Assembly (NCBI GenBank): GCA_016935315.1
Contig: JAFGRD010000019.1
Location: 62,001 to 126,000 of the forward strand
Direction of reading: 5' to 3'
Length of the DNA: 64,000 nucleotides
Source: Pirellulales bacterium
GTDB lineage: Bacteria > Planctomycetota > Planctomycetia > Pirellulales > Thermoguttaceae
This document shows, piece after piece, positions 10,416 to 52,366 of the stretch. Made by a program: the position numbers and the translations under genes. Below the pieces are notes generated by a model that saw only the letters and a program-made list of their open reading frames with translations, was not told where the DNA came from and made no database searches. Within the stretch, counting starts at the first letter, position 1. Each line of letters begins with the position of its first letter.

Positions 10416-11612
10416 ATGCCGGACGCGAAGCACGATCATGGCAGTCGGTCCATCGCCACCCGAACCGTTCATCACCCGGTGGCATCCCCCACTTCATATC
10501 CCGTGGCAACCCCCCTCTACCAGACATCAACCTTCCGAGTAGCCGACGCCGCCACGATCGCCAGGTATGCCGAGCAGACCCAACCCCAGGCATACTACAC
10601 TCGCTGGGGAAACCCGACGATCGAGGTCCTCGAAAAGGTGTTGGCCGATCTGGAGGGGGGCCAGAAGTGCCTGGCACTGGCATCCGGCATGGCGGCGGTC
10701 ACCACGACCCTGCTCGGGCTGCTCCGACCCGGCGACCATGTCGTGGCCGGGTCCTCTCTGTATACTGCCACGACCGAATTCTTGTCGTCCGATCTGGCTG
10801 AGTTGGGCATCTCGGTCGATTTCGTCGATCCGACCGATCCGGAAGCGTTCGCCCGGGCTGTGCGAAAGAACACCCGCATGTTCTACGTAGAGACGCCCAC
10901 CAATCCCACGCTGCAACTGACCGATCTGGCCGCCGTGTGCCGCATCGCCGACGAGACGGGAAACCTTGCCGTGGTCGACAACACGTTTGCGTCGCCCTAC
11001 AACCAGACGCCGTTGGCCCTTGGGGCCGACGTGGTGATTCACAGTGTCACGAAGTACCTTTCCGGCCATACGGACGTGATCGGCGGCTGTCTGGTAACCG
11101 ACGCGGAGACGGCCGAGCAACTGTGGCACCAGCGCACGATGCTCGGCGGCTGTATCGATCCGTTCGCCGCCTGGCTTGTGCTGCGAGGGGTCAAGACGCT
11201 GGCCGTGCGGATGCAACGGCACAACGACAACGCTTTGGCGGTCGCCGAGGCGCTGCGGTCGCATCCGGCCGTCTCGCGCGTGCTCTATCCCGGACTGGCC
11301 AGCCATCCCCAGTACGAGTTGGCCCAACGCCAGATGAGCGGCTTCGGCGGCATGATCGCTTTCGAGCTGGCCGGCGGCAGAGCGGCCGGCGTGAAGCTGG
11401 TGGAATCCACCCGGCTGGTCGTTCTGGCCGTCAGCCTCGGCGGCGTGGAAACCCTGATCGAGCATCCCGCCTCGATGTCGCACGCCCCGCTCAGCGACGA
11501 GCAACTCCGACGAGCCGGCATTCCCCCGGGACTGATTCGGTTGTCGGTCGGCATCGAAGATCCCGACGACCTGATCGCCGATCTATGGCAGGCGCTGGAC
11601 CGGCTGTCATAG
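10416..11612 (+). CDS. Cys/Met-metabolism PLP enzyme (cystathionine gamma-synthase/lyase or homoserine sulfhydrylase type)
   Basis: This 398-aa protein belongs to the PLP-dependent transsulfuration family. The lysine expected to bind PLP is in VIHSVTKYLSGHTDVIGG. Other family signatures are SGMAAVTTTLLGLL, the YVETPTNPTLQ segment, ADVVIHS, and a C-terminal SLGGVETLIEHPASMSH block followed by LIRLSVGIEDPDDLIADL. Family members cleave or form C-S bonds of cystathionine, methionine or O-acyl homoserine; sequence alone does not separate these activities. I chose the ATG at 10416 because GGAGAGAG precedes it at good spacing and the conserved N-terminus starts there. No other methionine genes are adjacent. 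A 14-bp tandem repeat starts just past the stop codon. Confidence 0.92.
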   Translation: MPDAKHDHGSRSIATRTVHHPVASPTSYPVATPLYQTSTFRVADAATIARYAEQTQPQAYYTRWGNPTIEVLEKVLADLEGGQKCLALASGMAAVTTTLLGLLRPGDHVVAGSSLYTATTEFLSSDLAELGISVDFVDPTDPEAFARAVRKNTRMFYVETPTNPTLQLTDLAAVCRIADETGNLAVVDNTFASPYNQTPLALGADVVIHSVTKYLSGHTDVIGGCLVTDAETAEQLWHQRTMLGGCIDPFAAWLVLRGVKTLAVRMQRHNDNALAVAEALRSHPAVSRVLYPGLASHPQYELAQRQMSGFGGMIAFELAGGRAAGVKLVESTRLVVLAVSLGGVETLIEHPASMSHAPLSDEQLRRAGIPPGLIRLSVGIEDPDDLIADLWQALDRLS

Positions 11613-11614
11613 AG

Positions 11615-11704
11615 GCGCTGTCGTACGGGCGCTGTCGTAGGGGCGCTGTCGTAGGGGCGCTGTCGTAGGGGCGCTGTGGTAGGGGCGCTGTGGTAGCGGC
11701 GCTG
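11615..11704 (+). repeat. 14-bp tandem repeat, about six units
   Basis: Six near-identical 14-bp units with consensus GCGCTGTCGTAGGG run head to tail and start three bases after the stop codon of the PLP enzyme gene. The fifth and sixth units carry GTGG in place of GTCG, and the sixth ends AGCG. A partial seventh unit (GCGCTGTGTCGCGCTG) closes the array. There are no spacers between units and every unit contains a TAG triplet. It is a simple tandem array, not a CRISPR. Confidence 0.85.
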
Positions 11705-27848: not shown

Positions 27849-28658
27849 ATGGGGCGCACGCTGAAGGCTCTACAGAAGATTGAGGCCGAATCGGCCTGGC
27901 CGTCGGCGCCCGACGCCGAGGCCGCCTTGTCGCGCGCCGAGGCAGCCGCCGCCATGGCAGCGGACGAATTCTCGGACGGCGGCCCGGCCCACGCCGAGCG
28001 AGCTGCCGTGGAGCCGGAAGCCGAACCCTCGCGGGACGGCGCCGTGGCCTGGCCTCAACCGCCCTCCGCCAAACACGCGGAGGCTTGCGGCCGGTTGGCC
28101 CAAAAAGTCCTTTCGCAACTGCCGCCGAAGGGCCCGGCCTCGCTGGTGTTTACCAGCCCAGGCGACGCAGCAGGCACCACGGGATTGCTGGTTTCGCTGG
28201 CCGAGGCGTTGGCCCAGCGGGTTTCGGGCAACGTGCTGTTGGTCGACGGCAATTGCCGGCATCCGTCGCTGGCAGACCATTTGGCAATCGACGTGGCGGA
28301 CGGCTGGGCCGACGTGCTTTCCGGCACGGTGCCCTGGCAGCAAGCGATACGCACCACCAGCGTGCCCCGGCTACACGTCCTGCCGGGCGCGGGGGCCGTG
28401 GCGGACGAGAATTGGCTGTCTCAAACACGGCGGTTCAGCCGGTTGCTGAGGGATCTCTGCCGCTCGTATCGGCTCGTGCTGGTCGACGCGGCGTCGCTGG
28501 CCTATCCGGAAGTTGCCCCGGCGGCCCGTCACTGCACGGGCGCCTATCTGGCAATCCGCCTATCGCGGACGACCCGTCGCGCGGCGCGGGAGGCCGTCGA
28601 GGTGATCGATGCCGGCGGCGGCCGTCTGTTGGGTTGCGTGGTGCTCGAGGGTTATTGA
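27849..28658 (+). CDS. CpsD/CapB-like (BY-kinase-type) ATPase with degenerate P-loop
   Basis: This 269-aa protein has a variable N-terminal part (1-90) and a MinD/BY-kinase-like domain. Walker A' is well kept (NVLLVDGNCRHPSL). The P-loop region reads TSPGDAAGTTGLL where active kinases have a GEGKS/T core, so the catalytic lysine is missing. DVLSGTVPWQQAI, LHVLPGAGAV and YRLVLVDAAS are further family blocks. There is no tyrosine-rich tail; the protein ends EGY. The final Tyr codon and TGA stop come from the mobile element that begins at 28652. It may be an inactive regulator partnered with the ExeA-type ATPase immediately upstream. Confidence 0.82.
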   Translation: MGRTLKALQKIEAESAWPSAPDAEAALSRAEAAAAMAADEFSDGGPAHAERAAVEPEAEPSRDGAVAWPQPPSAKHAEACGRLAQKVLSQLPPKGPASLVFTSPGDAAGTTGLLVSLAEALAQRVSGNVLLVDGNCRHPSLADHLAIDVADGWADVLSGTVPWQQAIRTTSVPRLHVLPGAGAVADENWLSQTRRFSRLLRDLCRSYRLVLVDAASLAYPEVAPAARHCTGAYLAIRLSRTTRRAAREAVEVIDAGGGRLLGCVVLEGY

Positions 28659-28755
28659 CGCTTGCCCGGTCAATGCGCGAGGGCGACCAACGGGAGCCCG
28701 AGTTTTCCGGCCTCCCGTTGATCGGCCTGGATCATTCACAATGCAAACATCCATA
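28652..28755 (+). mobile_element. MITE-like element, copy A (provides the stop codon of the upstream gene)
   Basis: This 104-bp element begins TTATTGACG and ends ATGCAAACATCCATA. TA dinucleotides bound the TIR core at both ends (28653-28654 and 28754-28755). The interior has a palindrome, GACCAACGGGAG (28685-28696) facing CTCCCGTTGATC (28712-28723). It is one of four copies, with others at 29611, 39527 and 52187. The in-frame TAT TGA at its left end closes the BY-kinase-like gene. It encodes nothing. Confidence 0.8.
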
Positions 28756-28760
28756 GGAAC

Positions 28761-28787
28761 CGTCGCAAGACAAGCTGGGCATTCTTG
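28761..28787. repeat. Short interspersed repeat (GGGCATTCTT family), copy 1
   Basis: CGTCGCAAGACAAGCTGGGC followed by ATTCTTG resembles the stretch at 33325-33353 (CTCGTAAAAGAACAAGTG then GGGCATTCTT) and, more distantly, 32464-32494. It lies six bases past MITE copy A. Confidence 0.45.
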
Positions 28788-28903
28788 TCGGTCCCTTCAC
28801 AAAGCAGCCGGTCTCGCACGCAAGCCCAACCGTAGCTGAGTGCACGAGGGTTTTCGGTGCCCTGGTACGGACAGATCCCGCGATGGAAGTCTTGCGACTT
28901 GCG

Positions 28904-29488
28904 TTACCATTTGGCCGCGATGTCACGCAGAGGTTGTTCTTCGGCCGGGGCGGCGGCCGCTTCTCGCTTGGGCAATCGCTGTGCGGTCAGTTGCACCGAT
29001 TCGATGGCCCGCCGCTGCACCAGCACGACGCCCAATCGCGATGCGGCAAGATTGTGAGTCGAGCTGTGCACGGTCACTTCGGTCAGGGCAAGGAACGGGG
29101 AAAGCGTGCTGCCTTCCTCCAACAGCGTCAGCGGGGTGGAACGCGACGGCAGATGGACGATGCCCGACAGAAGGTGGCCGGGCAGGGCGATCATGGCCCC
29201 GAAACGGTCCTTTGCCACGTAGTTGTTGGCCCGGCGGATCGGCGCCTCGTGAGTCCCCTTGGGAATCACCATGAAGATCCCGCTCTTTCTCAAGTAGAGC
29301 AGGTTCCAGCGGACGCTGGCCGACCCGTTGCCGATCAACCCGGTTACCGTGTCGCGCATCGTCAACGTATCGACAGTCGCGTCGTTGAGGACGTCGGCAA
29401 CGCGAAAGCCCCTCGTGGTTACCTCTCCCGTGTACCAGCACTGCCCGGTGATCACGTCGACCGAGGTGGTTGTCTGCTCGCCCTGCAT
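28904..29488 (-). CDS. Conserved-looking hypothetical protein
   Basis: I do not recognise this 194-aa protein. It starts MQGEQTTTSVDVITGQCWYT, is mostly beta-strand in appearance (LYLRKSGIFMVIP, GAMIALPGHLLSGIVHLP), and ends in an Ala/Glu-rich tail with AAKW. It has no signal peptide or membrane segment. The ATG ending at 29488 is preceded by GGAG eight bases upstream. The frame stays open upstream into MITE copy B, but that extension encodes only element sequence and is excluded. Confidence 0.65.
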   Translation of the reverse strand: MQGEQTTTSVDVITGQCWYTGEVTTRGFRVADVLNDATVDTLTMRDTVTGLIGNGSASVRWNLLYLRKSGIFMVIPKGTHEAPIRRANNYVAKDRFGAMIALPGHLLSGIVHLPSRSTPLTLLEEGSTLSPFLALTEVTVHSSTHNLAASRLGVVLVQRRAIESVQLTAQRLPKREAAAAPAEEQPLRDIAAKW

Positions 29489-29868
29489 CGTGGTTCTCCA
29501 AGGGTGCCCGTCTAGCATCGGTCTTCGTGATTCGGCCGGCGGCACGGCCTCAGCCGGCTGCAACTTGGGACTCGCAAGAGGCGCTGCGCGCATTGGCCAT
29601 CCGCGAGTCCTTATTGGTGTTTGCATCACGAATGATCCACGCCGACCAAGGGGAGGCCGGAAAAAAATCGGGCTCCCGTTGGTCGCCCTCGCGCATTGAC
29701 CGTGCAAACGTCAATAAACGGCCGAGAGACCTATAGGAACTCTCGTTTGAAGATGGGGCCGCGTCAAGCGAATCGGCGAATAATCGCGATGACAGCCGGA
29801 TATTCAGGTTCTGCCGGTTGCGCCGGTCTCCTTCCCAACTTGCTCCTGTGCCTGCTTACCGCAGCCAC
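29489..29868. other. Gene-free stretch containing MITE copy B
   Basis: This 380-bp region lies between two minus-strand genes. It contains MITE copy B (29611-29717). Near 29566 it has CTTGGGACTCGCAA, which also starts the composite repeat at 32459. The remaining 150 bases up to the aminotransferase stop codon hold no gene or clear signal. Confidence 0.5.
29611..29717 (-). mobile_element. MITE-like element, copy B
   Basis: This 107-bp copy is in reverse orientation. On the minus strand it reads TTATTGACGTTTGCACGG at its left end and TGCAAACACCAATAA at its right end; the terminal inverted repeats match at 13 of 15 positions. TA flanks both ends. The internal stem is GACCAACGGGAG against CTCCCCTTGGTC, with one mismatch. 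Confidence 0.8.
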
Positions 29869-30786
29869 TTACTCGCGACGCGCGAACCGCTCCGCCTGCC
29901 CGGCAATATCGATCCCCACCAACTCGCCCCAGGCCGTCAGCAGGCGGCGAAACACGGCGCCCGGCTTGCCGTCGCCGATCGGGCGGCCGTTCAGTCGCGT
30001 TACCGGCAAGAGGCACAGCGGCGTGCTGCCGAGCAGCACCTCGTCGGCCGCCGCAACTGTCTCGCACTTCAGGTCCCGCTGGAGGACGGGAATGCCGAGT
30101 TCTTGGGCCAGGTCGAGAAGGGTCGCCAGACTGATCCCGCGAAGGATTCGCGATTCGGGAGGCGAGATGAGCCCTTCGCCCGAAACGTAGGTCACCACGT
30201 TGGCCGTGGAGGTTTCGGTCACGTGGCCCTCGGCATCCAGCAGCAGCGCTCGGGAGCCCGCCTCGATCACGGCGGCCTGGCGGTCGGCCAGGTAGTAGTG
30301 CATCCGGCTGCGGCACTTCAACGCCGGCGGCCAGCACCGCGACGGCACCTGCTCGACGTCGGTGGTGACCAAGGACTGACCGCTGCCATACTTTTCAACC
30401 CAGAGGTGAAACGGCAGCGGATAGGTGTGCAAACAGACAGTCGGCCCGGCCGATCCATGCTCCGCATAGGCCCGATAGGTCCCCGGCGTAACGAACACCG
30501 ACAACCCCAGGTCGTCGCCGGCAGCCAGCAGCCGATGGTTTCGGGCGACCAGGTCTCGGGCAACGTCGGCAAATTGACCGATCGTCATGCCCGGGTCGAC
30601 GCCCACGATTTGCAGCGACCGCTGCAGCCGGGCCAGATGGTCATCCAAGCGGAACAGCCTTCCGGCAAAGGTCCGCACCTGTTCGGCGACCGTGGCTCCC
30701 AAAGTGAATCCGGTGTCGGCGACCGGCACGACCGCCGCGGAGGCGGGAATCCACCGGCCATTGAGAAACGCTTGAGGTTCGTCCAT
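29869..30786 (-). CDS. Class IV PLP aminotransferase (branched-chain/D-amino acid aminotransferase or aminodeoxychorismate lyase type)
   Basis: This 305-aa protein has the fold-type IV PLP enzyme layout: FLNGRWIPASAA then DTGFTLGATVAEQVRTFAG, RLDDHLARLQRSL, and the C-terminal LLLDAEGHVTETSTANVV block with ILRGISLATLLDLAQELGI. The lysine in ALKCRSRMHYYLADRQA aligns with the PLP lysine of D-amino acid aminotransferase (DIKSLNLLY). Substrate class cannot be decided by eye. I start at the ATG ending at 30786; a TTG six codons upstream is the alternative. It follows the hydrolase-like gene by 21 bp on the same strand, suggesting an operon. Confidence 0.87.
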   Translation of the reverse strand: MDEPQAFLNGRWIPASAAVVPVADTGFTLGATVAEQVRTFAGRLFRLDDHLARLQRSLQIVGVDPGMTIGQFADVARDLVARNHRLLAAGDDLGLSVFVTPGTYRAYAEHGSAGPTVCLHTYPLPFHLWVEKYGSGQSLVTTDVEQVPSRCWPPALKCRSRMHYYLADRQAAVIEAGSRALLLDAEGHVTETSTANVVTYVSGEGLISPPESRILRGISLATLLDLAQELGIPVLQRDLKCETVAAADEVLLGSTPLCLLPVTRLNGRPIGDGKPGAVFRRLLTAWGELVGIDIAGQAERFARRE

Positions 30787-30807
30787 GCCTCGGATGGCAG
30801 CCAAATG

Positions 30808-31929
30808 CTAGTGGTGGGTGATGAGCTGCCGATCGCCGTGAGGCGCGGAAAGCACAGGTCCAACGGCGGACGGCGACGCCGTCACCTGCTCGGGTTCCTC
30901 GGCGGCCTGCGGAAGCGGGTCCTGGCGGGGCTCAGTCGCGGTCTGCAAGGGCAGCTCCTGCTCCCCATCCGACCCATCATCCAGTAAGAACGTGTACCAG
31001 GCCAACCGGCCGCGGAGGCTGGAAGAGACCATGTAGCGGCCGAAGTCGTGGGCCCGGCCCACCGAGCAACTCAGGTTCAGCAGGTCGAGGTCCTCGCCCG
31101 ACGGGCAGCCGGCCGGACCCGCGTAGCCCAAGGCCGGCGGGCCGCCGCGACGGTACATCAGCGGATACCACTTCAACACGGGATCGCTGTGGTTGCGGGT
31201 AACCAACATGCGCTGGACCTGCGAGAGGGCCAGCCCGTTGCGGTGGCCCGGCAGCAGCCAATCGGCATCCAGCGCGGCGGCCAACAACACCGCGCGACGA
31301 CGCGGTTGCCGGCCGTCGGCGTTCGCGTCTTCGCCGGCCGGCTGCGCCAGGCTACGCCCGGCTACGTGCCCTCCGGCCAGAAGGTGCAACGTGCCGGTGA
31401 TCACCCGAGCCCCGAAGCTGTAGCCGACCAGGCCGACGGGCACGTCGGGCCGGATCCGCCGTAGGCAATCGGCCAGGTAATAGGCCTGCACATCGCTCCG
31501 GCAGGCCTTGACCTGCAAGTCCTGTCGGGTGCGACCGCGAATCCGGTCGCTCGGCCACGACCAGATCACCAACCGAAAGGCCTTGCCGGACGCATCCCGC
31601 TTCATTTGCCGGTACACGCGCCAACCGGCAGATACGGCGTCGCAGCGGTCGGTCCGGTTGCCGTGGATGAAGACCGTGGTGGGCCTCGAGGGTTCGTCTT
31701 CCTGGTGAAAAACACCCGCGTCGAGTTGCTGCCAACGGCGATCCGCTTGCAGCCGCCAATAGGTGATTCGGTCTTCGGCGGGGCGCAGGCTTCCGGATCG
31801 CGGGGCCCGCCGCGTGTTGACGATCCAAACGGATTCGAGCCCTTCGTCGGCGCCGGCGGGTGCGACGGCGGCCAGCACCGTCGTGCCGACGACCCAGGCA
31901 GCAATCGTCTTGTAGAGGGCAGCGTTCAC
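30808..31929 (-). CDS. Exported alpha/beta-hydrolase-like protein
   Basis: From a GTG ending at 31929 this protein has a clean signal peptide (NAALYKTIAAWVVGTTVLAA then VAPAGADEG). The mature part has TTVFIHGNRTDRCDA, a His-Gly oxyanion-type segment, and VGLVGYSFGARVI, which carries the G-x-S-x-G nucleophile elbow of lipases and esterases. AYYLADCLRRIRPDVPVGL and the later HSDPVLKWYPLMYR and SVGRAHDFGRYM could supply the acid and histidine. The frame remains open to an ATG at 32073 (421 aa), but that 48-residue extension does not look like an N-terminus. The C-terminal 50 residues are low-complexity Glu/Pro/Gln. Substrate unknown. Confidence 0.75.
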   Translation of the reverse strand: MNAALYKTIAAWVVGTTVLAAVAPAGADEGLESVWIVNTRRAPRSGSLRPAEDRITYWRLQADRRWQQLDAGVFHQEDEPSRPTTVFIHGNRTDRCDAVSAGWRVYRQMKRDASGKAFRLVIWSWPSDRIRGRTRQDLQVKACRSDVQAYYLADCLRRIRPDVPVGLVGYSFGARVITGTLHLLAGGHVAGRSLAQPAGEDANADGRQPRRRAVLLAAALDADWLLPGHRNGLALSQVQRMLVTRNHSDPVLKWYPLMYRRGGPPALGYAGPAGCPSGEDLDLLNLSCSVGRAHDFGRYMVSSSLRGRLAWYTFLLDDGSDGEQELPLQTATEPRQDPLPQAAEEPEQVTASPSAVGPVLSAPHGDRQLITHH

Positions 31930-32059
31930 GGTTCGCAACGGTCGGCACAGGAACGGTCTGAGGTTCTCGCAGCAAAACTCTTCTGTAGTGTAGCCTCTAT
32001 TGAACGTCGAGGTCGCAAAAAGGAAAAACGCTTCGTGGGAAAAAACACTCGCGTTGCGT

Positions 32060-32087
32060 TTGCACATCATCAAAACTGTTGTAGAGT
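32060..32087 (+). promoter_or_regulatory. Possible promoter of the small lipoprotein gene
   Basis: TTGCAC (32060-32065) and TAGAGT (32082-32087) are 16 bases apart, the same -35 and spacing as the promoter proposed at 20691-20718. It lies in one of the few AT-rich stretches of the window. Confidence 0.33.
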
Positions 32088-32133
32088 TGACGTGGCGAGA
32101 ACCTCGCGAAAAAGGGTCCGTTTCGACTGGAGT

Positions 32134-32346
32134 ATGCGAATAATGAAGAAGCTACTGATTCTGACGGCTGTGTTGATGCTGACGAGTAGCGCAGTGGGCT
32201 GCCGATGCTGTGATTGGCTGTGGCGCGGCGCGCCTGCCAGTCCGTGCGTGCCGATGGCCACGTACGGCGACTACAGCCCGCCCTGCAATCCGTGCGATTC
32301 GTGCGCGCCCGCAGAGCCCTACTCGTCGATCCCCGGCCCTCAGTAA
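32134..32346 (+). CDS. Small Cys-rich predicted lipoprotein
   Basis: This 70-aa protein (67 aa if the second ATG at 32143 is used) begins MRIMKKLLILTAVLMLTSSA followed by VGCRCCDW. Lys-Lys, a hydrophobic core and the AVGC lipobox indicate a lipoprotein signal. The mature part is only about 45 residues and contains seven cysteines (CRCC, CVP, CNPCDSC) and several prolines. GGAG at 32128-32131 favours the ATG at 32143. I know of no assigned function; short Cys/Pro-rich lipoproteins of this type occur in planctomycetes. It is too short for homology-based naming. Confidence 0.65.
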   Translation: MRIMKKLLILTAVLMLTSSAVGCRCCDWLWRGAPASPCVPMATYGDYSPPCNPCDSCAPAEPYSSIPGPQ

Positions 32347-32463
32347 CGAGACAAACCGAGTCAAGCAGTCTGTTCCCCTCCCAGCAGTGCGAGACCGTCG
32401 CGCGTCGGCCGTGCCATCCTGAACGCGGCCGGCCGCGATTGGCCTCGCCCGCGCCGTTCTTGG

Positions 32464-32550
32464 GACTCGCAACAAAACACGTTGGGCGTTGTTGAGGGTC
32501 TGCGCTTTCTGAAAAAACGGCACATAGGCCTGGATGAAAGAGAAAAGGCG
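32464..32550. repeat. Composite interspersed repeat, copy 1
   Basis: GACTCGCAACAAAACACGTT plus GGGCGTTGTTG is followed at 32501 by a 50-bp block (TGCGCTTTCTGAAAAAACGG then CACATAGGCCTGGATGAAAG) that matches 42255-42304 at 45 of 50 positions. The second block has CTTTC/GAAAG ends and a central AGGCCT palindrome, so it can fold. It lies between two convergent genes and has no coding capacity. Confidence 0.65.
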
Positions 32551-32566
32551 GCACAAACACCGCGAC

Positions 32567-33268
32567 TCATCCAGGCCGCCGCGCTCTGCTTCGTCTTCGA
32601 CCCAGAAGACCGCCCAGCCCCAACACGGCGAACCCGACGCCGAGCAGAGTGGAACACGCCGGCTCGGGAACCGCCGACGCGTTGAGACGCACGTTGTCGA
32701 TGCCGGTGATTTCAAAGGGAGTGTAGTTGGTGTAATACGCCATCTCGATCCTGAGCTCGGTAACGTCCTCCAGCAGTGCGCCCCAATCCCCGGACATCGC
32801 GGCCCACGCTGATTCCACCAGGGTGGCCTCCAGCGGCAGCCAGGAAACCGACGGATTCGGCGCCGGGCCGAGCCACCGGAATGCACCTCCCGGGCCGGAA
32901 ATGACGACGGTGTAATCCCCGATGCTTGCCACGCTTCCGGTCGTGAAGATATTGGCTTCGTAGCTCAGATCGGTCACACCGAGAGCCGACCAGTTGCCCA
33001 GATAAGCCGGCGGCGCATAGATCGACGTGGTGGAGCCTGCCCCGTACGGCACGTTGTTGTCGTACCGCATGTATCCGCCCGGATTGCCGCCTGCAGATTG
33101 CCAACTGATTCCCGGATCGGCAGCAAGCCGGGTCCAGCCCTGGCTGCCGTCGTCGAAATCGCTGCTTGCGATGGTGATGGTCGTCGCCGCGGCCGGCGTT
33201 GCCGCCATCGCGAACAGTGCCAATCCAGAGATCCATCCTGTTGTGAGTACTCGTGCAGTCGGTGTCAT
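32567..33268 (-). CDS. PEP-CTERM sorting-domain protein with laminin-B-like region
   Basis: This 233-aa protein has a signal peptide (VLTTGWISGLALFAMAATPA), a beta-sandwich body of the kind seen in laminin B-like carbohydrate-binding domains (SSDFDDGSQGWTRLAADP, PGGYMRYDNN, FEITGIDNVRLNASA), and a textbook PEP-CTERM tail: VPEPACSTLLGVGFAVLGLG then GLLGRRRSRARR. It should be processed by an exosortase and released or anchored outside the cell. GGAGGG precedes the ATG ending at 33268 at about four-base spacing. Confidence 0.88.
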   Translation of the reverse strand: MTPTARVLTTGWISGLALFAMAATPAAATTITIASSDFDDGSQGWTRLAADPGISWQSAGGNPGGYMRYDNNVPYGAGSTTSIYAPPAYLGNWSALGVTDLSYEANIFTTGSVASIGDYTVVISGPGGAFRWLGPAPNPSVSWLPLEATLVESAWAAMSGDWGALLEDVTELRIEMAYYTNYTPFEITGIDNVRLNASAVPEPACSTLLGVGFAVLGLGGLLGRRRSRARRPG

Positions 33269-33324
33269 TCATCCCTCCAGGTGATGATGGATTTCCGGCA
33301 ACTGATGCCAAACCCATCCAAGGA

Positions 33325-33353
33325 CTCGTAAAAGAACAAGTGGGGCATTCTTA
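33325..33353. repeat. Short interspersed repeat (GGGCATTCTT family), copy 2
   Basis: CTCGTAAAAGAACAAGTG (33325-33342) is identical to 42237-42254 and is followed by GGGCATTCTTAGCCC, a small hairpin. Together with 28761 and 32464 this defines a short dispersed repeat. Confidence 0.6.
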
Positions 33354-33381
33354 GCCCACAACGGCGACCATGGTAACGGCG

Positions 33382-33413
33382 CGCCCCCTCCGTGTATAGG
33401 GGCGGACGTTTTT
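33382..33413 (+). terminator. Terminator-like hairpin in the leader of the CotH gene
   Basis: CGCCCC (33382-33387) pairs with GGGGCG (33399-33404) and TTTTT follows at 33409. This looks like an intrinsic terminator reading toward the CotH gene, although no plus-strand gene ends just before it. It could insulate the gene or act as an attenuator. Confidence 0.33.
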
Positions 33414-33469
33414 GATATTACCGCAGAAAACAGCCGAAAATCTTGCACTGCCCAGCATTATCCAACATA

Positions 33470-36268
33470 ATGATACTCGTTGTGTTGCGGGATGGTCGAG
33501 CCGGGGAGGTTGTTTTGTTGCGCCACTTGACGCGTGCGTGGGGACGGGCACGTTGGGGGCCGACCGCGCACAAGAACACCGGTGCCCGATCCACGGCCCG
33601 CTGGAGCAACGGGGCCCCGTTCGAGTCGCTCGAGCCGCGACTGGTCCTTGATGCGGGGCCGCTGGTGATCAGCGAACTGCTGGCCGTCAACGACAGCGTC
33701 TATCCCGACGGCGACGGCGACTTCTCCGATTGGATCGAAATCCATAACCCCACACAAACCGCCGTCCAGTTGGGCGGCTGGTTCCTGACCGACGATGCGG
33801 ACAGCCTGGCCAAGTGGCAGTTTCCGGCCTTTTCGCTTGCCGCGGGCGCCTATGAGGTTATCTATGCCTCGGGCAAGGATTCGGCGGGTCCGCCGGGGCA
33901 AATGCACACCAACTTCCGGCTCGACGGCAACGGCGAATACCTCGCCCTGGTTCGGCCCGACGGGGTGACGATCTCGCACGCCTATGCGCCCGAATTCCCC
34001 GGGCAGTACGCCGATGTTTCCTACGGCGTGGCCCAAGACGCCACGGCCTTCGCCCTGGAGACGGACCAACTGGCGTACCGTGTGCCGGAAGCGGCCGATG
34101 CGGCCCTGGGGACTTCCTGGGCCGAAGTGGATTTCGAGGATTCAACCTGGAGCGGCTATCGGCTGCCGCCGCAGGTCCTGATCACCGAGGCCGGGACGGA
34201 AGACGATTTTGTTGAGATCCAGAATCTCGCCGGCGAGCCGGTCGACACGTCGGGCTGGGTGGTGGCGGTCAACTATCCTCGGGGCGACGAGCCGGTCGTC
34301 AACAACACGAACACGCTCTTCTGGGCCTTGCCGGAGGTGATGGCGCCCGACGAGATCCTCTACCGGCACGACGACGCGGACGACCCCGGGCATTATTGGG
34401 GTGAAGGCATTGTCTGGCAGACGACCGGCAACGGCTGGGTGATGATCGTCGACGATCTCGGCCAGGTCGTCGATCTTGCCGTCTGGGGTTACACGGCCGC
34501 CGAGATTGCGGCGATGACGGTGGAGATCAACGGGTTCGACGTAACCGCAGGCAACGCTTGGTCGGGCGACGGGGCGCCCCGCTCCACGGGCCCCGGCCTC
34601 TCGCTCCAGCGCCACGGCGACGCGGACCACGACGATGCCTCGGACTTCGGCTTCGTCGGGCCGGTGTCGATGGGCCAGCCCAACAACGAGCTGGTGCTGC
34701 CGTTCTCCTCGCGGGGCGTGCCCGGCGTCGGATTCGACCTCAATCCGCCCGATTTCGACGGCGCGATCCTCCTCGACGTTCAGGAGCCGATGCACGGCGT
34801 CAACGCATCGCTGTGGATGCGGATTCCCTTCGAGGTCGACGACCTGGCCGCGTTGAACACGATGCAGCTTCGCATCCAATACAACGACGGCTTCGTGGCG
34901 TACCTCAACGGCCGCGAGGCGGCCCGACGCAACGTGCCCGATTCGCCGCAATGGGATTCCGCGGCCCCGGCCGCCCGCGACGCGGCCGAATCGCTGGTGC
35001 GGGAGACCATCGACATCACCGATTCCCTCGGCGATCTGACGGTGGGCACCAACGTGCTGGCCATCCACGGGCTGAACGTCGCCCCGTCCGACGGCAATTT
35101 CCTGATCGTGCCGGAGCTGGCGGCTACCAGCACCGAGTATTTTCTCGATCCGACGCCGGGAGAACCCAACGGGCCGGGGCTGCTGGGGTTCGTCAAGGAT
35201 ACCCGCTTCAGCGTCGACCGCGGCTTCTACGACGAGCCGTTTGCGCTGGAGATTTCCAGCGACACGGCCGGGGCGTTGATCTGCTACACGCTCGACGGCT
35301 CCGTGCCCTATCTCGATCTGGACAACGTAGCCCCCGACGAGACCAACGGCATTGCCTATTCGGGCCCGATCCCCATCGATCGCACGACCACGCTCCGCGC
35401 GGCCGCCTTCAAGCGGGGATTCCAGCCGACCAACGTCGACACGCACACGTACATCTTCGTCGACGACGTGGTCCGGCAGGACTACCAGGCCACGCTCGAC
35501 GCCGGCTTCCCGACGACCTGGGGCAGCGTCTCGCCCGACTACGGCATGGATCCGGACGTCATCGGCCCGGACGACCTGTTCGGCGGGATCTACGCCGCCA
35601 CGATCCGCAACGACCTGAAGTCGCTGCCCACGCTGTCGATCGTGATGAACATCGACGACATGTTCGGCCCCAGCGGGATCTACACCAATTCGCAAGCCGA
35701 AGGCGTGGCCTGGGAACGGGCCACCTCGGTCGAATGGATCGATCCCGACGGCGACGACCGGTTCCAAGTTGATTGCGGGATCCGCATTCAGGGCGGCTGG
35801 TTCCGGCAGGACAGCGGCACGAAGAAACACTCGCTGCGGCTGCTCTTCAAGAGCGACTACGGGCCGACGAAGCTCGCCTTCCCGCTGTTCGGCGAGAGCG
35901 CGGTCGACCGTTTCGACACGATCACGCTGCGGGCCGGCGCCAACGACGCCTATTCGTGGGACGCCGCCTACTTGACCGAGCAATACACCCGCGACGAGTT
36001 CGGCCGCAGCCTGCAACGGGCGGCCGGGCAGGTCGGCTCGCACGGCAACTTCGCCCATCTGTACATCAACGGGATCTATTGGGGGCTCTACAATCCGGTC
36101 GAACGCCCCGACAACTCCTTCTCGGCCAGCTACTACGGGGGCGACAAGGAACAGTGGGACGCGATCCACGACGGCAGCGCATCGGCCGGCAGCACGACCG
36201 CCTGGAACCAGATGATTTCCCAGTCGCAGGCGGCGGCAACTTCCAACGCGGCCTATCAGCGCCTATAG
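33470..36268 (+). pseudogene. CotH/lamin-tail surface protein, N-terminal fragment ending at a premature amber codon
   Basis: This is the first part of one gene of about 2,020 codons; the rest is at 36308-39532 in the same frame. It has the planctomycete motif FESLEPRLVLDA and a lamin-tail domain directly after it (ISELLAVNDSVYPDGDGD, DWIEIHNP). A second lamin-tail-like unit (FVEIQNLAGEPVDTSGWVV) and a chitobiase-like unit (GALICYTLDGSVPYLD) follow. A CotH kinase domain comes last (CGIRIQGGWFRQDSGTKKHS, LRLLFKSDYGPTKL, ITLRAGANDAYSWD, LYINGIYWGLYNPVERPD). The frame stops inside CotH at TAG 36266-36268, where a CAG codon would restore QRLQGNNADGTRNP. Start is uncertain: ATG 33470 is used, but GGGGAGG precedes a TTG at about 33518. 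Confidence 0.85.
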
Positions 36269-36307
36269 GGCAATAACGCCGATGGCACGCGCAACCCCGT
36301 CTACCCG

Positions 36308-39300
36308 GTGCTGCTGGACGTGGCCAACTACGTCGACTACATGGCGATCAACATCTGGGGCGGCAACTGGGACTGGCCAAACAAGAATTACTGGGCGGGC
36401 CGCGACCGCTCGGCGGAGAGCACCGGTTTCAAGTTCTACAACTGGGACTTCGAGAACACGATGGGCAACAACCGCAGCCGGTCGCCGTTGACCATGGTGG
36501 CCCCGCGAAACACCGACGGCGCCGGCCAGCCGCACCGCTACCTGGTGCAGAACGCCGAATACCGGATGCTCTTCGCCGATCGCCTGCACCGGCTGCTTCT
36601 CAACGGCGGCGTGCTCACCCCCGACTCCTTGATCGCCCGCTACGCCGAGTTGGCCGACCAGGTCGAAAGGGCCATCGTCGCCGAGTCGGCCCGCTGGGGA
36701 GACCAGCACCACAGCCCACCGCTGACGCTGCAGCAATGGTACACCGAGCGAAACTGGATCCTCAACACGTACCTGCCCCAGCGGTCCGGCATCGTCTTGC
36801 AGCAGTTCCGCAACAGTGGGCTGTATCCCAACGTCAGTGCCCCCGCCTTCTATGTCGATGGGGCGTACCAGCACGGCGGATTTGTCGCCTCCGGCGGCCG
36901 GTTGACCATGCCGGCCGCCGCGGGAACGGTCTACTATACGCTCGACGGCTCTGACCCCCGGCAGTTCGGCGGCGGCATTTCCCCTTCCGCCGAACTCTTC
37001 GACGGCAATCCGGCGCTGCTGAGCGGGTCCATGGTGGTGAAGGCCCGGGCGCTGGTCGGCGGCGAGTGGTCGGCGTTGAACGAGGCGGAGTTCTTCGTGG
37101 GACAGATGGCATCGGCCGACAACCTGGCGATCAGCGAATTGAACTACGCCCCCTATCCGCCTACCGCCGAGGAAGCAGCGGCCGGCCTCACCGACAGCGA
37201 GCAGTTCGAGTTCGTCGAGCTGCAAAACGTCGGCGAGGAGTCGCTCGATCTGGCCGGCGTCCGGTTTGCGGGGGGAGTCGCCTTCACCTTCGCCGCCGCG
37301 CCGCTGATGCTGGACCCCGGAGGGCGAGTGGTTGTGGTCCGCGACCAGTCCGCGTTTGCGGCCCGCTACGACACGGGCGCGATACGCGTCGCCGGCCAAT
37401 ACGACGGCAGGCTCCGCAACGAGGGCGAGGAGATCTGGCTGCAAGACCGCTTCGGCGGAACCATCGAACGGTTCAGCTATGACGACGGCGGCGACTGGCC
37501 CGGCCGGGCAGCCGGCAAGGGCGCCTCGCTCGAGTTGATCGACCCGCAGGCCGTCCCGCCAGCCGAGCCCGACCGCACCGCCTACCTTCAAGACGGCAAT
37601 CACTGGCGTTCCAGCAGCGAGTACGGCGGCTCGCCGGGCGCCGGGGGCGAAGGCCCCCGGGGCGACGTCCTGGTCAACGAAGTGCTCACGCACACCGATT
37701 GGCCCCAGATCGACACGATCGAGCTGATCAACACCACCGGCAGTCCGATCGACGTCGGCGGTTGGTACCTGAGCGACTCCTGGGGCTGGGGTGAAAACGA
37801 CGGCCGCAGCAATTACCGGAAACACCGCATTCCCGACGACACGGTTATCCCGCCCGGCGGATACGCGGTCTTCGACGAGGACGACTTCAACCCCACCCCG
37901 CTGGACCCGGGGCCCAACGACTTCGCGCTCGACGGCGCCCACGGCGACGACGTCTGGCTGATGGAGGCCGACGCTTCGGGCAGGCTGACGCGGTTCGTCG
38001 ATCACGTGGAGTTTCCCGCGGCCGCCAACGGCGAGACGTTCGGACGCTGGCCAGACGGCGCCGGGCCGCTGTATCCGATGACCACACCCACCTTGAACCC
38101 GGCTCAGGGCGAGAACAGCGGTCCGCGCGTCGGGCCGCTGGTGCTCAGCGAGCTGGGCTACAACCCGGGCGCGTTTCCGGGCGCCGACGAGTTGGAATTC
38201 GTCGAGATCTTCAATCCCACCGGCACGGCCGTCGATCTGACCGACTGGCGGGTCCGCGGCGGAATCGACTACGACTTCCCCGACGGCACGCTGCTGGGCG
38301 CCGGGGCGGCCCTGGTGGTCGTTCCCTTCGACCCCGGCGACGCCGACAAGGCCGCGGGATTTCGGGCCGAGTATGGAATCGACGGTTCGGCCATGTTGCT
38401 CGGTGCGTATTCCGGCCGGCTGGACGACGACGGCGAGACGGTCCGCTTGCAGCGACCCGACGAGCCGCCGCCGGACGAGCCCGAGTTCATTCCACACCTG
38501 CTCGAAGACGAGCTGCCCTACGACGACCAGGCCCCATGGCCGGGCGAAGCCGACGGCGGCAGTTTCTCGCTGAACCGGCTGGGGGCCGACTCGTGGGGCC
38601 ACGACGCGGCCAGTTGGACGGCCGCGGCCCCGACGCCCGGCACGGCGCCGTTGCTGGCGTCGGCGGGGATCGTCGGCCGCCACGTCTTCTACAACGGCAG
38701 CACCTTCGACGGCAACAGCCCGGCGGCCCATTCGCAGGACGACGCGGCCGTGGCCACGGACAAACAGCCACTTCTGCCCGGCCAGACCGCCACGTTTGCC
38801 AACTACACCAGCTTCAGTCGAGGCATCAACGGCGTGATGGTCGACTTGGTCGGCTTGCCGCAAGCCGCCGCGCCGGGGACCGACGACTTCGTCTTCCGCG
38901 TGGGCAACAGCAACGATCCGGGCACCTGGGGCCTCGCCACCGCGCCCACTGCGATCACCGTGCGGCCCGGCGCCGGCACCGGCGGTTCCGATCGGGTGAC
39001 GTTGATCTGGCCCGACTTCGCCGTCGTGAACCAGTGGCTGGAAGTCACCGTGCTGCCCACGCCCGACACCGGGCTGGCAGAAGCGGACGTCTTCTATTTC
39101 GGCAACGCGATCGGCGAGGCGGGCAACTCGACCGTCGACGCGAAGGTCAACGCCTCCGACATGCTCTTGTCGCGGAACAACCCCCGGACTTTCCTGAACC
39201 CGGCCCCGATCGACTTCCCCTGCGATTTCAACCGGGACGCCCGCGTCAACGCCACGGATATGCTCATTGCGAGAAACAACCCGACGCATTTTCTCAACGC

Positions 39301-39532
39301 CTTGAGGCTGATCGCGGTGCCGGACAAGGCGGCCGAAGGTCCATCGGAGAGCAAGACAAAGAGCAAGGCCGTCGACCGGGAGGAGAACAAGACCGTCGGC
39401 CGGGATCGGCCGGCGGACGACCAGACGTGGATTTTCGAGGTGGCTGAAATCGGCAGGGCCCGGCGACCGTCGGCGAAGGACAATTCGACGTATGTTGCCA
39501 TCGATGAACTGCTGGCCGCCGAGGCCTATTGA
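36308..39532 (+). pseudogene. CotH/lamin-tail/dockerin surface protein, C-terminal fragment
   Basis: In frame with 33470-36268, this 1074-codon part continues the CotH domain (DVANYVDYMAINIWGGNWDW). At least three lamin-tail domains follow (LNYAPYPPTAEEAAAGL, VLVNEVLTHTDWPQIDTIEL, LVLSELGYNPGAFPGADELE), with a chitobiase-like unit between (TVYYTLDGSDPRQFGG). A dockerin-type pair lies near the C-terminus: TVDAKVNASDMLLSRNN and DFNRDARVNATDMLIARNN with calcium-loop Asp/Asn positions. A 70-residue charged tail ends EAAY-like AEAY. The GTG at 36308 could permit re-initiation, but without the LEPRLVLDA end this piece would not be exported. The last TAT TGA derives from MITE copy C, so the original C-terminus is unknown. 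Confidence 0.83.
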
Positions 39533-39629
39533 CGTTTGCACGGTCAATGCGCGAGGGGGACCAACGGGAGGCCGATTTTTCCGGCCTCCCGTGGGTCGGC
39601 CTTGATCAGGCGCGATGCAGACATCAATA
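39527..39629 (+). mobile_element. MITE-like element, copy C (provides the stop codon of the CotH gene)
   Basis: This 103-bp copy runs from TATTGACGTTTGCACGG to TGCAGACATCAATA, flanked by TA at both ends. The stem is GACCAACGGGAG against CTCCCGTGGGTC. The TGA at 39530-39532 inside its left terminal repeat ends the CotH/dockerin frame. Same orientation and same junction type as copy A. Confidence 0.8.
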
Positions 39630-42236: not shown

Positions 42237-42304
42237 CTCGTAAAAGAACAAGTGTGCACTTTCTGAAAAAACGGCACTTAGGCCTATATGAAAGAGGAAA
42301 GGCG
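42237..42304. repeat. Composite interspersed repeat, copy 2
   Basis: CTCGTAAAAGAACAAGTG (42237-42254) abuts a 50-bp block (42255-42304) with CTTTCTGAAAAAACGGCAC and AGGCCT that is 45/50 identical to 32501-32550. It lacks about 15 bases in the middle compared with copy 1, including the GGGCATTCTT part. It starts one base after the stop codon of the DUF11 gene. Confidence 0.65.
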
Positions 42305-46840: not shown

Positions 46841-48304
46841 TCAAGGCGGGCCGCCGGCCGGGCCTTCCGAGGTAGCGCGGGAGGGCGTATGGTAGAAACG
46901 CCGATCTTCTCGAGCCATCTCCTCCAGAAAGCGCGTGGGCTGTGCCCGCAGGCCCAGGTCGTCCAGCGAATCGAGCAGCTCGAGGATCCGCCGCAGGCCC
47001 AGCGTGTCGGCCCACCAGAGCAAGCCGCCTCGGGCCGCCGGAAACCCGAGGCCGAAGAGCACGGCCAGGTCGATGTCGCGCGGATCGCGAACCTTGCCTT
47101 CTGCAAGAATCCGCGTGGCCTCCAGCACCATCGGCAACAACAGCCGTGCGGCGACCGAGCCGGCCGTGTGGCGCCGGGGCGTTCGGGCCCAGCGGCCGAT
47201 CATCTGGCCGACGATCGGGTCAACCGTCCGCGCCTGCCCGCCGGGCTGGCCCGGTCCATCGGCGTAGCGGAAGAATCCGGCCCCCGACTTGCAGCCCAAG
47301 CGCCGGGCCTTCAGCATGCCGATCAACAAGGGCGATGGGGCGATGCGATCGGCGAAGGCGTCGCGCAGCACGATTCCCCCTTGCAGCACCGTATCGAGTC
47401 CGATCTCGTCGGCCAGTTGCAGCGGGCCCTTGGCCATGCCGAAATCGATCGCCGCCCGTTCGATCGTCTCGATCGCGGCCCCTTCCAGCAGAAGCTCGAA
47501 CGCTTCGCCCAGATACGGCAACAACAGCCGATTGACCAGGAATCCCGGCCCGTCGTCGACCACGATTGGCATCTTGTCGAGGCCTTTGGCATGGGCGACG
47601 GCCGTGGCCACGGTCCGGTCGCTGGTGGCCGGCCCGCGGACGATCTCGACCAACGGCCGGCGGCGGACGGGGTGGAAGAAGTGGATTCCGCAGAATCGTT
47701 CCGGCCGGGCCAGTCTCGCCGCCAACCGCCCGATCGGAATCGTCGACGTGTTCGACGCCAGCAGGGTCTCGTCGCCCAGGTGCGGCTGCAGCGCGGCGTA
47801 GAGCCCTTGCTTGGCGGCAAGGTTCTCCACAATCGATTCGATCACCAGATCGCACTGCCCCAGGGCAGCGTGGTCGGCGGTTGTCCGCACCATCTCGGCC
47901 ACAAGCCTGCGGCCCTCGCCGCCGGGAACGTCGCAGGGAACGTCGCAGGGAACGTCGCAGGGCACTTCACCGGCCAACTCCGCAACGATCTGGCGCGGCA
48001 CGCCAGCCAACACGGACTCGTCGGCATCGGTCAGCACCACCGGCACGTTTCCGCGCACATGAACCGCCGCCACGGCGGCACCCATCATGCCGGCCCCCAC
48101 GATACCCACCGAACGGATCGGGCGGGCGTCGGCCGTCGCGCCGTCGAGCCCCGGGTCGCGCCGGTTCCGCTCGATCAGCAATCGGACGTTGCGTTGCGCC
48201 GGCCCCGGCGGCGTTTCGCCGAAGATGGTCTCACGCAGAAGGTCGTCGTCAGCGGGCAAGTTCGTCGGGGCCTTTCGTGGTGCCGCGGGCGGCCTGGCGG
48301 GCAT
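46841..48304 (-). CDS. 3-hydroxyacyl-CoA dehydrogenase without hydratase domain
   Basis: This 487-aa protein matches the C-terminal half of FadB/FadJ-type multifunctional enzymes. NAD binding is VGIVGAGMMGAAVAAVH near residue 65, followed by IESIVENLAAKQGLYAALQP, SNTSTIPIGRLA and FCGIHFFHPVRRRPLVEIV, where His is the catalytic base. FLVNRLLLPYLGEAFELL and two HCDH_C-like regions complete it. It oxidises 3-hydroxyacyl-CoA to 3-ketoacyl-CoA. The first 60 residues (LIERNRRDPGLDG) look like the linker that follows the enoyl-CoA hydratase domain in fusions, but no hydratase is encoded upstream. Its start overlaps the HEAT-lipoprotein gene by 56 bp. Confidence 0.88.
   Translation of the reverse strand: MPARPPAAPRKAPTNLPADDDLLRETIFGETPPGPAQRNVRLLIERNRRDPGLDGATADARPIRSVGIVGAGMMGAAVAAVHVRGNVPVVLTDADESVLAGVPRQIVAELAGEVPCDVPCDVPCDVPGGEGRRLVAEMVRTTADHAALGQCDLVIESIVENLAAKQGLYAALQPHLGDETLLASNTSTIPIGRLAARLARPERFCGIHFFHPVRRRPLVEIVRGPATSDRTVATAVAHAKGLDKMPIVVDDGPGFLVNRLLLPYLGEAFELLLEGAAIETIERAAIDFGMAKGPLQLADEIGLDTVLQGGIVLRDAFADRIAPSPLLIGMLKARRLGCKSGAGFFRYADGPGQPGGQARTVDPIVGQMIGRWARTPRRHTAGSVAARLLLPMVLEATRILAEGKVRDPRDIDLAVLFGLGFPAARGGLLWWADTLGLRRILELLDSLDDLGLRAQPTRFLEEMAREDRRFYHTPSRATSEGPAGGPP
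47925..47960. repeat. 12-bp tandem triplication inside the dehydrogenase gene
   Basis: GGAACGTCGCAG is repeated three times in a row. On the coding strand it gives an in-frame run of CDVP units in the product, in a loop of the NAD domain. The units are perfect copies, so slippage or recent expansion is likely. Confidence 0.85.
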
Positions 48305-52019: not shown

Positions 52020-52366
52020 GGGGCATGTAAGACTTGCTGCCGACAAGCTTTGAGAGAACGCCTACAATATACAGACTACCACCGCCTAAGCCGAGCTGTC
52101 AAGTTGTATCACCTGGGATGGATCGCCGGCCGCGCGGGGTGCTTGCCTCGTTTGACATTCCGACGGGCCGTGGCGTAGAGTATGTTTTACTGATGTTTGC
52201 ATGGCAGATGATCCAGGCCGACCAACGGGAAGCCGGAATAGTCGGGCCCCCGTTGGTCGCCTTCGCATATTGACTGTGCAAACGTCGATAAGCTAAACGC
52301 TCGGCACGCAACAGGGGGCGAGCGGGTGGACTGAATAGCCTGGGACGGATAGAGAGGAAGCACGCG
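52020..52366. other. Divergent intergenic region with MITE copy D
   Basis: These 347 bases separate a minus-strand and a plus-strand gene. A perfect TTGACA -35-like hexamer reads leftward at about 52096-52101, but only a weak -10 candidate lies at the right distance. MITE copy D occupies 52187-52291. No gene is visible. Confidence 0.45.
52187..52291 (-). mobile_element. MITE-like element, copy D
   Basis: This 105-bp copy is in reverse orientation. On the minus strand it reads TTATCGACGTTTGCACAG at one end and TGCAAACATCAGTAA at the other, with TA flanking the core on both sides. The inner palindrome is degraded (GACCAACGGG/CCCGTTGGTC kept). It lies in a divergent intergenic region and does not supply a stop codon. 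Confidence 0.78.

Follow-up and report, generated by a model that had tools for sequence, protein, structure and literature searches.

The window considered here, a stretch of 64,000 nt from a Pirellulales bacterium, contains four copies (A to D) of a palindromic repeat, two of which end protein-coding genes (Table 1). The first of these genes is BY-kinase-like; in NCBIfam it comes closest to the models for XrtA-associated tyrosine kinase and EpsG, in both cases under the cut-off. In both genes the last two codons, TAT TGA, belong to the repeat and form its first six bases. It can thus be read directly from the sequence that the element ends give both genes an in-frame stop and that the TA in TAT TGA is the duplication, as the initial annotation had proposed. 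A search of Rfam gave 0 matches at gathering score over the whole window and, at 28500-29800, four weak matches below this score, none of them overlapping the element.

Table 1 Repeat copies and associated genes in the 64,000-nt window
Feature	Position	Strand	Remarks
BY-kinase-like gene	27849..28658	+	269 aa including added Tyr; stop from copy A; end GGT 28650-52, TAT 28653-55, TGA 28656-58
Copy A	28653..28755	+	103 nt from TA to TA; left end TAT TGA is the gene's stop; right flank G; reconstructed empty site GGT TAG G
TGA from copy A	28656..28658	+	element positions 4-6
Copy B	29612..29716	-	intergenic, inverted relative to copy A; not at a stop
CotH / lamin-tail-domain gene	36308..39532	+	1074 aa including added Tyr; stop from copy C; end GCC 39524-26, TAT 39527-29, TGA 39530-32
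Copy C	39527..39629	+	103 nt; left end TAT TGA is the gene's stop; right flank G; reconstructed empty site GCC TAG A
TGA from copy C	39530..39532	+	element positions 4-6
Copy D	52188..52290	-	intergenic, between divergent genes; not at a stop

The repeat and its target site

Judging from its sequence, the repeat looks like a MITE of the IS630 type, and the Pirellulales genome carries hundreds of copies of it; 205 were counted in the 2.757 Mb sampled (39% of the genome). It is short (consensus 103 nt), non-coding and high in copy number, as MITEs are. Three of the 6 reading frames of the consensus are open over the whole length. The consensus has terminal inverted repeats (TATTGACGcTTGCACAgTCAATG / TATTGATGTtTGCATTGtGAATG), and at both ends the repeat starts with TTGA. 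Among 160 full copies the duplicated TA is present at the left end in 102, at the right end in 103, at both in 71 and at one or more in 134, and it is missing from both ends at 25 of 158 sites. A pyrimidine precedes the left TA and a purine follows the right TA in 155/160 copies each, which defines the target as Y-TA-R.

One IS630-type element of 1104 bp, encoding an HTH plus a DDE_3 domain, was found in the same genome. Over the first 14 bases its right end agrees with the repeat at 12 positions and its left end at 10, while further in they differ. No element-like repeat was found at the loci of the four DDE_3 matches. Nor did the sampled sequence yield an autonomous element bounded by the repeat's own ends: where two element-like ends lie 125-4000 nt from each other, their spacing does not recur at any one size, and inspection revealed no evident IS. 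The repeat may be mobilised by an IS630 transposase.

The repeat is rare within genes. Genes were predicted with a home-made caller based on codon usage and not taken from a curated annotation; 15 of the 158 sites lie inside coding sequences called in this way, and three called genes cross an entire element; when GC is substituted for TA at every site, 38 called genes still span a site. Of the YTAR sites inside coding sequences 5 are occupied and 1082 free, compared with 120 occupied and 1151 free elsewhere (p=3e-27). Purging of in-gene insertions may be the cause.

Stop codons supplied from either end

At 34 of the 158 sites the TA occupied by the copy belongs to the TAA or TAG stop of a called gene (42/158 if a TA is assumed at every site). 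These 34 copies form 37 gene ends, 18 by the left and 19 by the right element end, and in all 37 the first or second codon read in the element is a stop, with Tyr-stop in 24. Both ends can act at once: a convergent pair of a ketoacyl-synthase and an MFS gene, with one common stop TA, is split by an element that gives each gene a TGA from its own side, and a convergent TIM-barrel/Gfo-Idh-MocA pair with a common stop TA is split likewise.

The initial annotation had judged two independent window insertions in the same frame to be more than chance. However, when a Y-TA-R inside a gene has its TA at codon positions 1-2, the codon must be the gene's own stop, TAA or TAG, and the common frame therefore follows from the target and needs no separate explanation. 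Two same-frame insertions among four copies are also not beyond chance, the probability of at least two of the four lying at stops being 0.20 if the genome-wide share (34/158) is applied and 0.16 if the proportion that stops make up of free non-coding YTAR sites is taken instead; the genome-wide pattern is real.

Whether such insertions shorten the protein can be judged from empty sites, which were reconstructed and not taken from a relative's genome, none of the 59 relatives listed being congeneric, and which would represent the historical state. In copies A and C the base 3' of the right-hand TA is G, so that the uninterrupted codon would read TAG and just one residue was added. Most homologues of the CotH protein in the sampled genome (15/24) end within one residue of the same point, the other 9 ending more than one residue away (range -19 to +34). 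Relatives of the BY-kinase-like protein were not confirmed in the genome contigs, and its C-terminus was judged by the end of the EpsG profile, where residue 265 aligns to position 272 of 274. Since most CotH homologues and the EpsG profile end at about the same residue, the two genes appear not to be truncated, contrary to what had been suggested for them.

Truncation, with replacement of the original C-termini, is a most improbable general account of the repeat. Among 48 gene ends inside elements, 45 fall on a TAA or TAG once the empty site is reconstructed, and another keeps the same length, so that by reconstruction truncation is rejected for 46 of them; the other two (C120:106563-107234 and C142:95823-97496) do resemble truncations, the element having apparently entered a TAC codon for Tyr. 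Homologues or family profiles lend further support for some genes, the inspected profiles ending, like most CotH homologues, at about the element. A comparison of homologue ends was possible for 7 of the 37 genes; in one of these a match extends 1478 residues beyond the gene end, and in one family 12/14 matches are 2-6 residues shorter. In most cases, then, the element joins the end of a gene, the stop comes one codon later and the protein is left undamaged.

Furthermore, the stop is better retained at those element ends that terminate a gene. It is kept at 37/37 stop-supplying ends. Within the same elements the opposite end keeps it in 24/31 cases (one-sided p=0.0027), and in other elements having TA at one or both ends it is kept at 159/198 ends (p=0.0006). 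If TA is written at every site the values are 45/45, 32/39 and 184/232, respectively. The TGA alone is intact at 35/37 stop-supplying ends, while the remaining ends taken together have it in 219/279 (two-sided p=0.025). Base 4 is kept in 36/37 against 196/229 and base 6 in 37/37 against 208/229, while bases 1-3 are no better conserved at the stop-supplying ends.

Position and orientation of the copies

Stops are occupied modestly more often than intergenic YTAR sites (occupied 33:87, free 212:939; OR 1.68, p=0.02), also after stratification by tetramer and flanks (OR 1.78, p=0.012). This excess, and the larger proportion of intergenic copies that are at most 100 nt away from the 3' end of a gene (29/87 compared with 173/883 free sites), would be expected if the element, in addition to preferring YTAR, actively sought stops or 3' ends with the help of a host factor or of a process linked to termination. 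We consider this quite unlikely, because the excess disappears when the YTAR sites used for comparison are those no more than 100 nt from a 3' gene end (OR 0.94, p=0.89) and is not significant within 200 or 400 nt (OR 1.27 and 1.37, p=0.38 and 0.22). In addition, no significant stop excess was seen in a first, smaller sample of 1.63 Mb with 90 sites (p=0.46). Nearness to 3' ends is not special either, since 5' ends, too, lie closer to the copies than to free sites (49/87 and 357/883 within 100 nt), and their distribution over tandem, divergent and convergent regions (47, 34 and 6) resembles that of free sites (486, 338 and 59). The strand bias at 3' ends that the initial annotation had regarded as a supporting sign is absent, left and right ends being used equally.

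The same annotation foresaw a hairpin shortly after the stop, and the predicted fold is indeed very stable (consensus -54.4 kcal/mol, z -8.0; copy A -42.0 and copy C -58.0). Such a fold could speak for a transcription terminator or an mRNA-stabilising hairpin, for the sake of which gene-end copies were kept. However, the T-run of the consensus belongs to the loop and is confined to one strand, whereas the two orientations are equally frequent at stops (18:19) as well as among intergenic copies in tandem regions (23:24), and convergent regions are not enriched (6/87 compared with 59/883 free sites). A terminator or stabilising role thus appears unlikely, and neither position nor orientation of the copies supports a terminator.

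Proposed mechanism and relation to known repeats

The arrangement is very probably explained by a non-autonomous IS630-type element that splits a stop codon at Y-TA-R, re-makes it, is tolerated and is then kept by selection. A transposase acting in trans would insert the repeat at Y-TA-R with duplication of the TA and thereby divide a TAA or TAG after its TA. Because both ends start with TTGA, a ribosome arriving from either side would read TAT TGA, that is, an extra Tyr and then a stop. Insertions within genes would mostly be purged and those at stops tolerated, as a consequence of which copies would persist at gene ends. Thereafter the gene would depend on the stop of the element, and selection would retain it.

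The IS630-Spn1-linked MITE RUP of the pneumococcus (107 bp, 108 copies) also has a TA-containing target, and its ends resemble an IS630 element of its own genome, a likeness that the present repeat may share; RUP is, however, described as lying between genes and as having stops in each of its six frames (PMC2229807), whereas about one fifth of the present copies lie on gene stops and three frames are open. Closer in effect is BOX of Streptococcus pneumoniae, a different repeat with ends likened to ISSpn2, which encodes the stop at the extreme 3' end in 36/58 BOX-overlapping genes, strong evidence for truncation being absent (PMC3049150). Like BOX, the present repeat gives a stop to many mostly untruncated genes (48 gene ends, 2 apparent truncations). 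Small mobile repeats fused to genes, several of them at the 3' end, have also been reported for enterobacterial RU-1, Coxiella QMITE2, Acinetobacter MITEAba12 and the Neisseria Correia element (PMC2759123, PMC5896051, PMC6382973, PMC2229807). According to the passages on these examples, RU-1 and QMITE2 at gene 3' ends lengthen the protein by about 33-35 residues (PMC2759123, PMC5896051) and MITEAba12 leaves a protein 398 residues shorter (PMC6382973), while here usually one residue is added. The supply of stops by a repeat is thus already known from BOX of the pneumococcus; what is new here is the rule that covers both ends, together with the signal of retention. In the parts of the BOX account concerned, no stop-splitting rule, two-ended supply or retention test was found (PMC3049150), and some literature searches for the stop-splitting mechanism, within open-licence PubMed Central, gave no match, which does not imply that it is unpublished.

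The finding amounts to a simple, testable rule: a mobile repeat can settle at gene ends almost free of cost by splitting TAA or TAG and re-making the stop from either end. For annotators a terminal Tyr-stop is to be expected at such sites. With the opposite ends as internal control, the end of a transposon is apparently held by selection as the stop codon of a gene. The YTAR target and the TTGA ends may even form together an adaptation for harmless landing at gene ends, including those of convergent genes that share a stop, an idea that we regard as doubtful; if true, hosts would become dependent on the element, and about 2-3% of the genes in the copy-rich sample end in element DNA.

The repeat, its copies and its relatives

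The 103-nt palindromic repeat is a MITE-like element which duplicates TA and is found four times in the window. Its consensus, built from 84 copies, is TATTGACGcTTGCACAgTCAATGCGCGAGGGCGACCAACGGGAGCCCGAtTTtTCCGGCCTCCCGTTGGTCGGCCTgGATCATTCaCAATGCAaACATCAATA. An initial annotation had noted that copies A and C end a kinase-like and a CotH gene, respectively, by an in-frame TAT TGA, and both endings are read exactly so.

Copies of the palindromic repeat in the window
Feature	Position	Strand	Description
Element copy A	28653-28755	+	103-nt palindromic repeat
Element copy B	29612-29716	-	palindromic repeat, the one of 105 nt
Element copy C	39527-39629	+	103-nt palindromic repeat
Element copy D	52188-52290	-	103-nt palindromic repeat

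Copies A and B are inverted around a minus-strand ORF of 194 aa (28904-29488) with a DUF6812 match below cut-off. In addition, the window contains a 53-nt repeat unlike the element (32498-32550 and 42252-42304, 89% identical) and short tandem arrays whose units are 14 nt and 12 nt long (11603-11700 and 47917-47964).

With copy C as query against its own genome (7.1 Mb, 172 contigs) at least 68 matches were obtained with 40 of 421 candidates scored, certain copies being counted on both strands. The core pattern of the element matched 236 times forward and 264 times in reverse, some copies twice, compared to 1 and 1 for the reversed control. By its gene content the organism would seem to resemble a planctomycete. 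A profile search of 2,757,339 bases (fetched stretches plus the window) revealed 205 copies, 197 of them clear of edges and 160 of these full length with more than 50 bits; after removal of two which overlap another copy, 158 remained for the site analyses. A head-to-tail pair is located at C78:191091-191291 (contig:position in the own genome), one copy apparently inserted at the terminal TA of the other.

DDE_3 has four matches over three contigs of the genome. One of them belongs to a 1104-bp IS630-type element on contig C149, where HTH domains are encoded in a first frame and DDE_3 follows in the -1 frame, which suggests a -1 frameshift at an A-run. Its ends are GATTGACC... and ...GAGTCAATA; the right one equals the left terminal repeat of the palindromic element at 12 of 14 positions, the left one at 10 of 14. 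The profile of the repeat found nothing at the loci of the DDE_3 matches. An element combining HTH and DDE_3 with a TA target is one we take to be IS630, and the passage on RUP agrees. The closest known kinds are RUP, which is linked to IS630-Spn1 (PMC2229807), and BOX, which has already been described as supplying stops with no clear truncation of the genes (PMC3049150).

Matches to the repeat were present in 17 of the 60 genomes searched, the own genome included. Six of nine related loci fetched from other genera of the order could be resolved to full-length repeats with the ends Y|NNTTGA...TCAANN|R, and none of these is placed at an evident gene stop. Furthermore, the 23-mer GAGGGCGACCAACGGGAGCCCGA (element positions about 27-49) occurs exactly in 15 Oscillospiraceae MAG contigs (with 'Lapin' isolate names) and one Flavobacterium contig, in surroundings that differ from the element (loci L204-L219). 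L208 also carries the other arm type, GGCC/GGCC around the loop GACCAACGGGA, and in L204 the 23-mer falls inside a match to Flavo-1 RNA that stays under the gathering score. The 23-mer may be a hairpin shared between these genomes or, for the single Flavobacterium case, a matter of chance.

Target site and fate of the interrupted genes

C or T precedes the left TA in 155 of the 160 full copies, and A or G follows the right TA in 155 as well; the target is therefore Y-TA-R, a class identical from either strand. TA is intact at both ends of 71 and at one end or more of 134 of these copies, 126 of the latter in Y-TA-R. With TA at codon positions 1-2, such a site would be the gene's own stop, because a codon of TA and a purine can only be TAA or TAG; on this reasoning the frame shared by copies A and C needs no coincidence. 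Since their right TA is followed by G, the empty sites (element excised) of copies A and C are GGT TAG and GCC TAG, and judged from these reconstructions either insertion would cost its gene one added Tyr.

Both element ends supply stops, the left one at 18 and the right one at 19 of 37 gene ends. The added residues are Tyr (24), His (5), Cys (3), Ser (2), Asp, Lys and none (1 each), the non-Tyr residues resulting from changes in the first three bases of the element. At C107:18226 convergent ketoacyl-synthase and MFS genes, formerly with one common TTAG in the reconstruction, are now parted by the element and both end TAT TGA. A TIM-barrel and a Gfo/Idh/MocA gene are likewise split at C37:27402, the latter now ending CAT TGA, and one member of a third pair (C65:135239) is a low-score call of 119 aa.

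The truncation of C-termini expected by the initial annotation does not hold as a general outcome. In the actual sequence 48 called genes terminate within an element, 45 of them at a reconstructed TAA or TAG and one (C120:100134) with unchanged length; the other two (C120:106563, C142:95823) appear to have been cut short by an element that entered a Tyr codon (TAC). A separate count, restricted to overlaps of more than 3 bases, gave 46 gene ends in elements, all at depth 6, as well as five genes starting in an element and three running across one. The CotH/LTD gene (36308-39532) belongs to a large paralogue family (at least 21 matches in the own genome, 19 of 137 candidates scored). Among 24 homologous places in the sampled genome, the gene itself excluded, 15 end within one residue of the present end and the remainder at -19 to +34; one of the 15 is a paralogue with a damaged element copy at its stop (C107:12451-12553), reading TCT TGA. 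Residues 72-265 of the kinase-like protein align with positions 79-272 of 274 of EpsG, at a score below the family cut-off. For many homologues in relatives the alignment extends as far as residues 264-268 of 269, these being ends of alignments rather than observed stops. In a citramalate synthase ended by an element, the alignment to the family reaches position 525 of 526.

Placement of copies relative to genes

A home-made codon-usage caller, applied to the sequence with elements excised, yielded 1814 genes, of which 1796 have a stop codon (TGA 908, TAG 662, TAA 226). The 158 sites comprise 34 at stops, 109 intergenic and 15 in coding sequence. In YTAR context 33 stop, 87 intergenic and 5 coding sites are occupied, and 212, 939 and 1082 are free, a strong depletion at coding sites (p=3e-27). 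Compared to intergenic YTAR sites, stops show a modest excess (OR 1.68, p=0.02; stratified OR 1.78, p=0.012), which was non-significant in a first sample of 90 sites (12:45 vs a total of 122:591, p=0.46). That the element seeks stops appears unlikely: the excess is lost when the comparison is with YTAR sites no more than 100 nt from the 3' end of a gene (33:29 vs 209:173, OR 0.94, p=0.89). Intergenic copies sit closer than free sites to gene ends of both kinds: a 3' end is no more than 100 nt away for 29/87 copies vs 173/883 free sites, and a 5' end for 49/87 vs 357/883. Placement thus appears to follow availability and tolerance near genes rather than stop-seeking.

Retention of the supplied stop

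Site classes were assigned on the empty sequence, independently of bases 3-6 of the element end. A stop lies in the first two codons at 37/37 stop-supplying ends. The values are 24/31 for the opposite ends of the same elements (one-sided p=0.0027) and 159/198 for the ends of those other elements that have at least one terminal TA (one-sided p=0.0006). When TA is placed at every one of the 158 sites, they become 45/45, 32/39 and 184/232 (p=0.0034 and 0.00008), and 34/34 for genes of at least 150 aa with a score above 60. TGA itself is kept at 35/37 stop-supplying vs 219/279 other ends (two-sided p=0.025); the two exceptions have a TAA instead and an immediate TAA, respectively. Stop-supplying ends preserve bases 4 (36/37 vs 196/229) and 6 (37/37 vs 208/229) better than other ends do; base 5 hardly varies in either class (36/37 vs 227/229), and bases 1-3 are no better preserved (30/37, 32/37, 34/37 vs 198/229, 206/229, 210/229).

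It is highly probable that the repeat is an IS630-type MITE which splits stop codons on insertion, that either of its ends re-makes the stop and that selection afterwards retains the stop supplied by the element; called genes that run across elements lower this confidence slightly. The excess of copies at stops most likely reflects, for the most part, where the element can land harmlessly.
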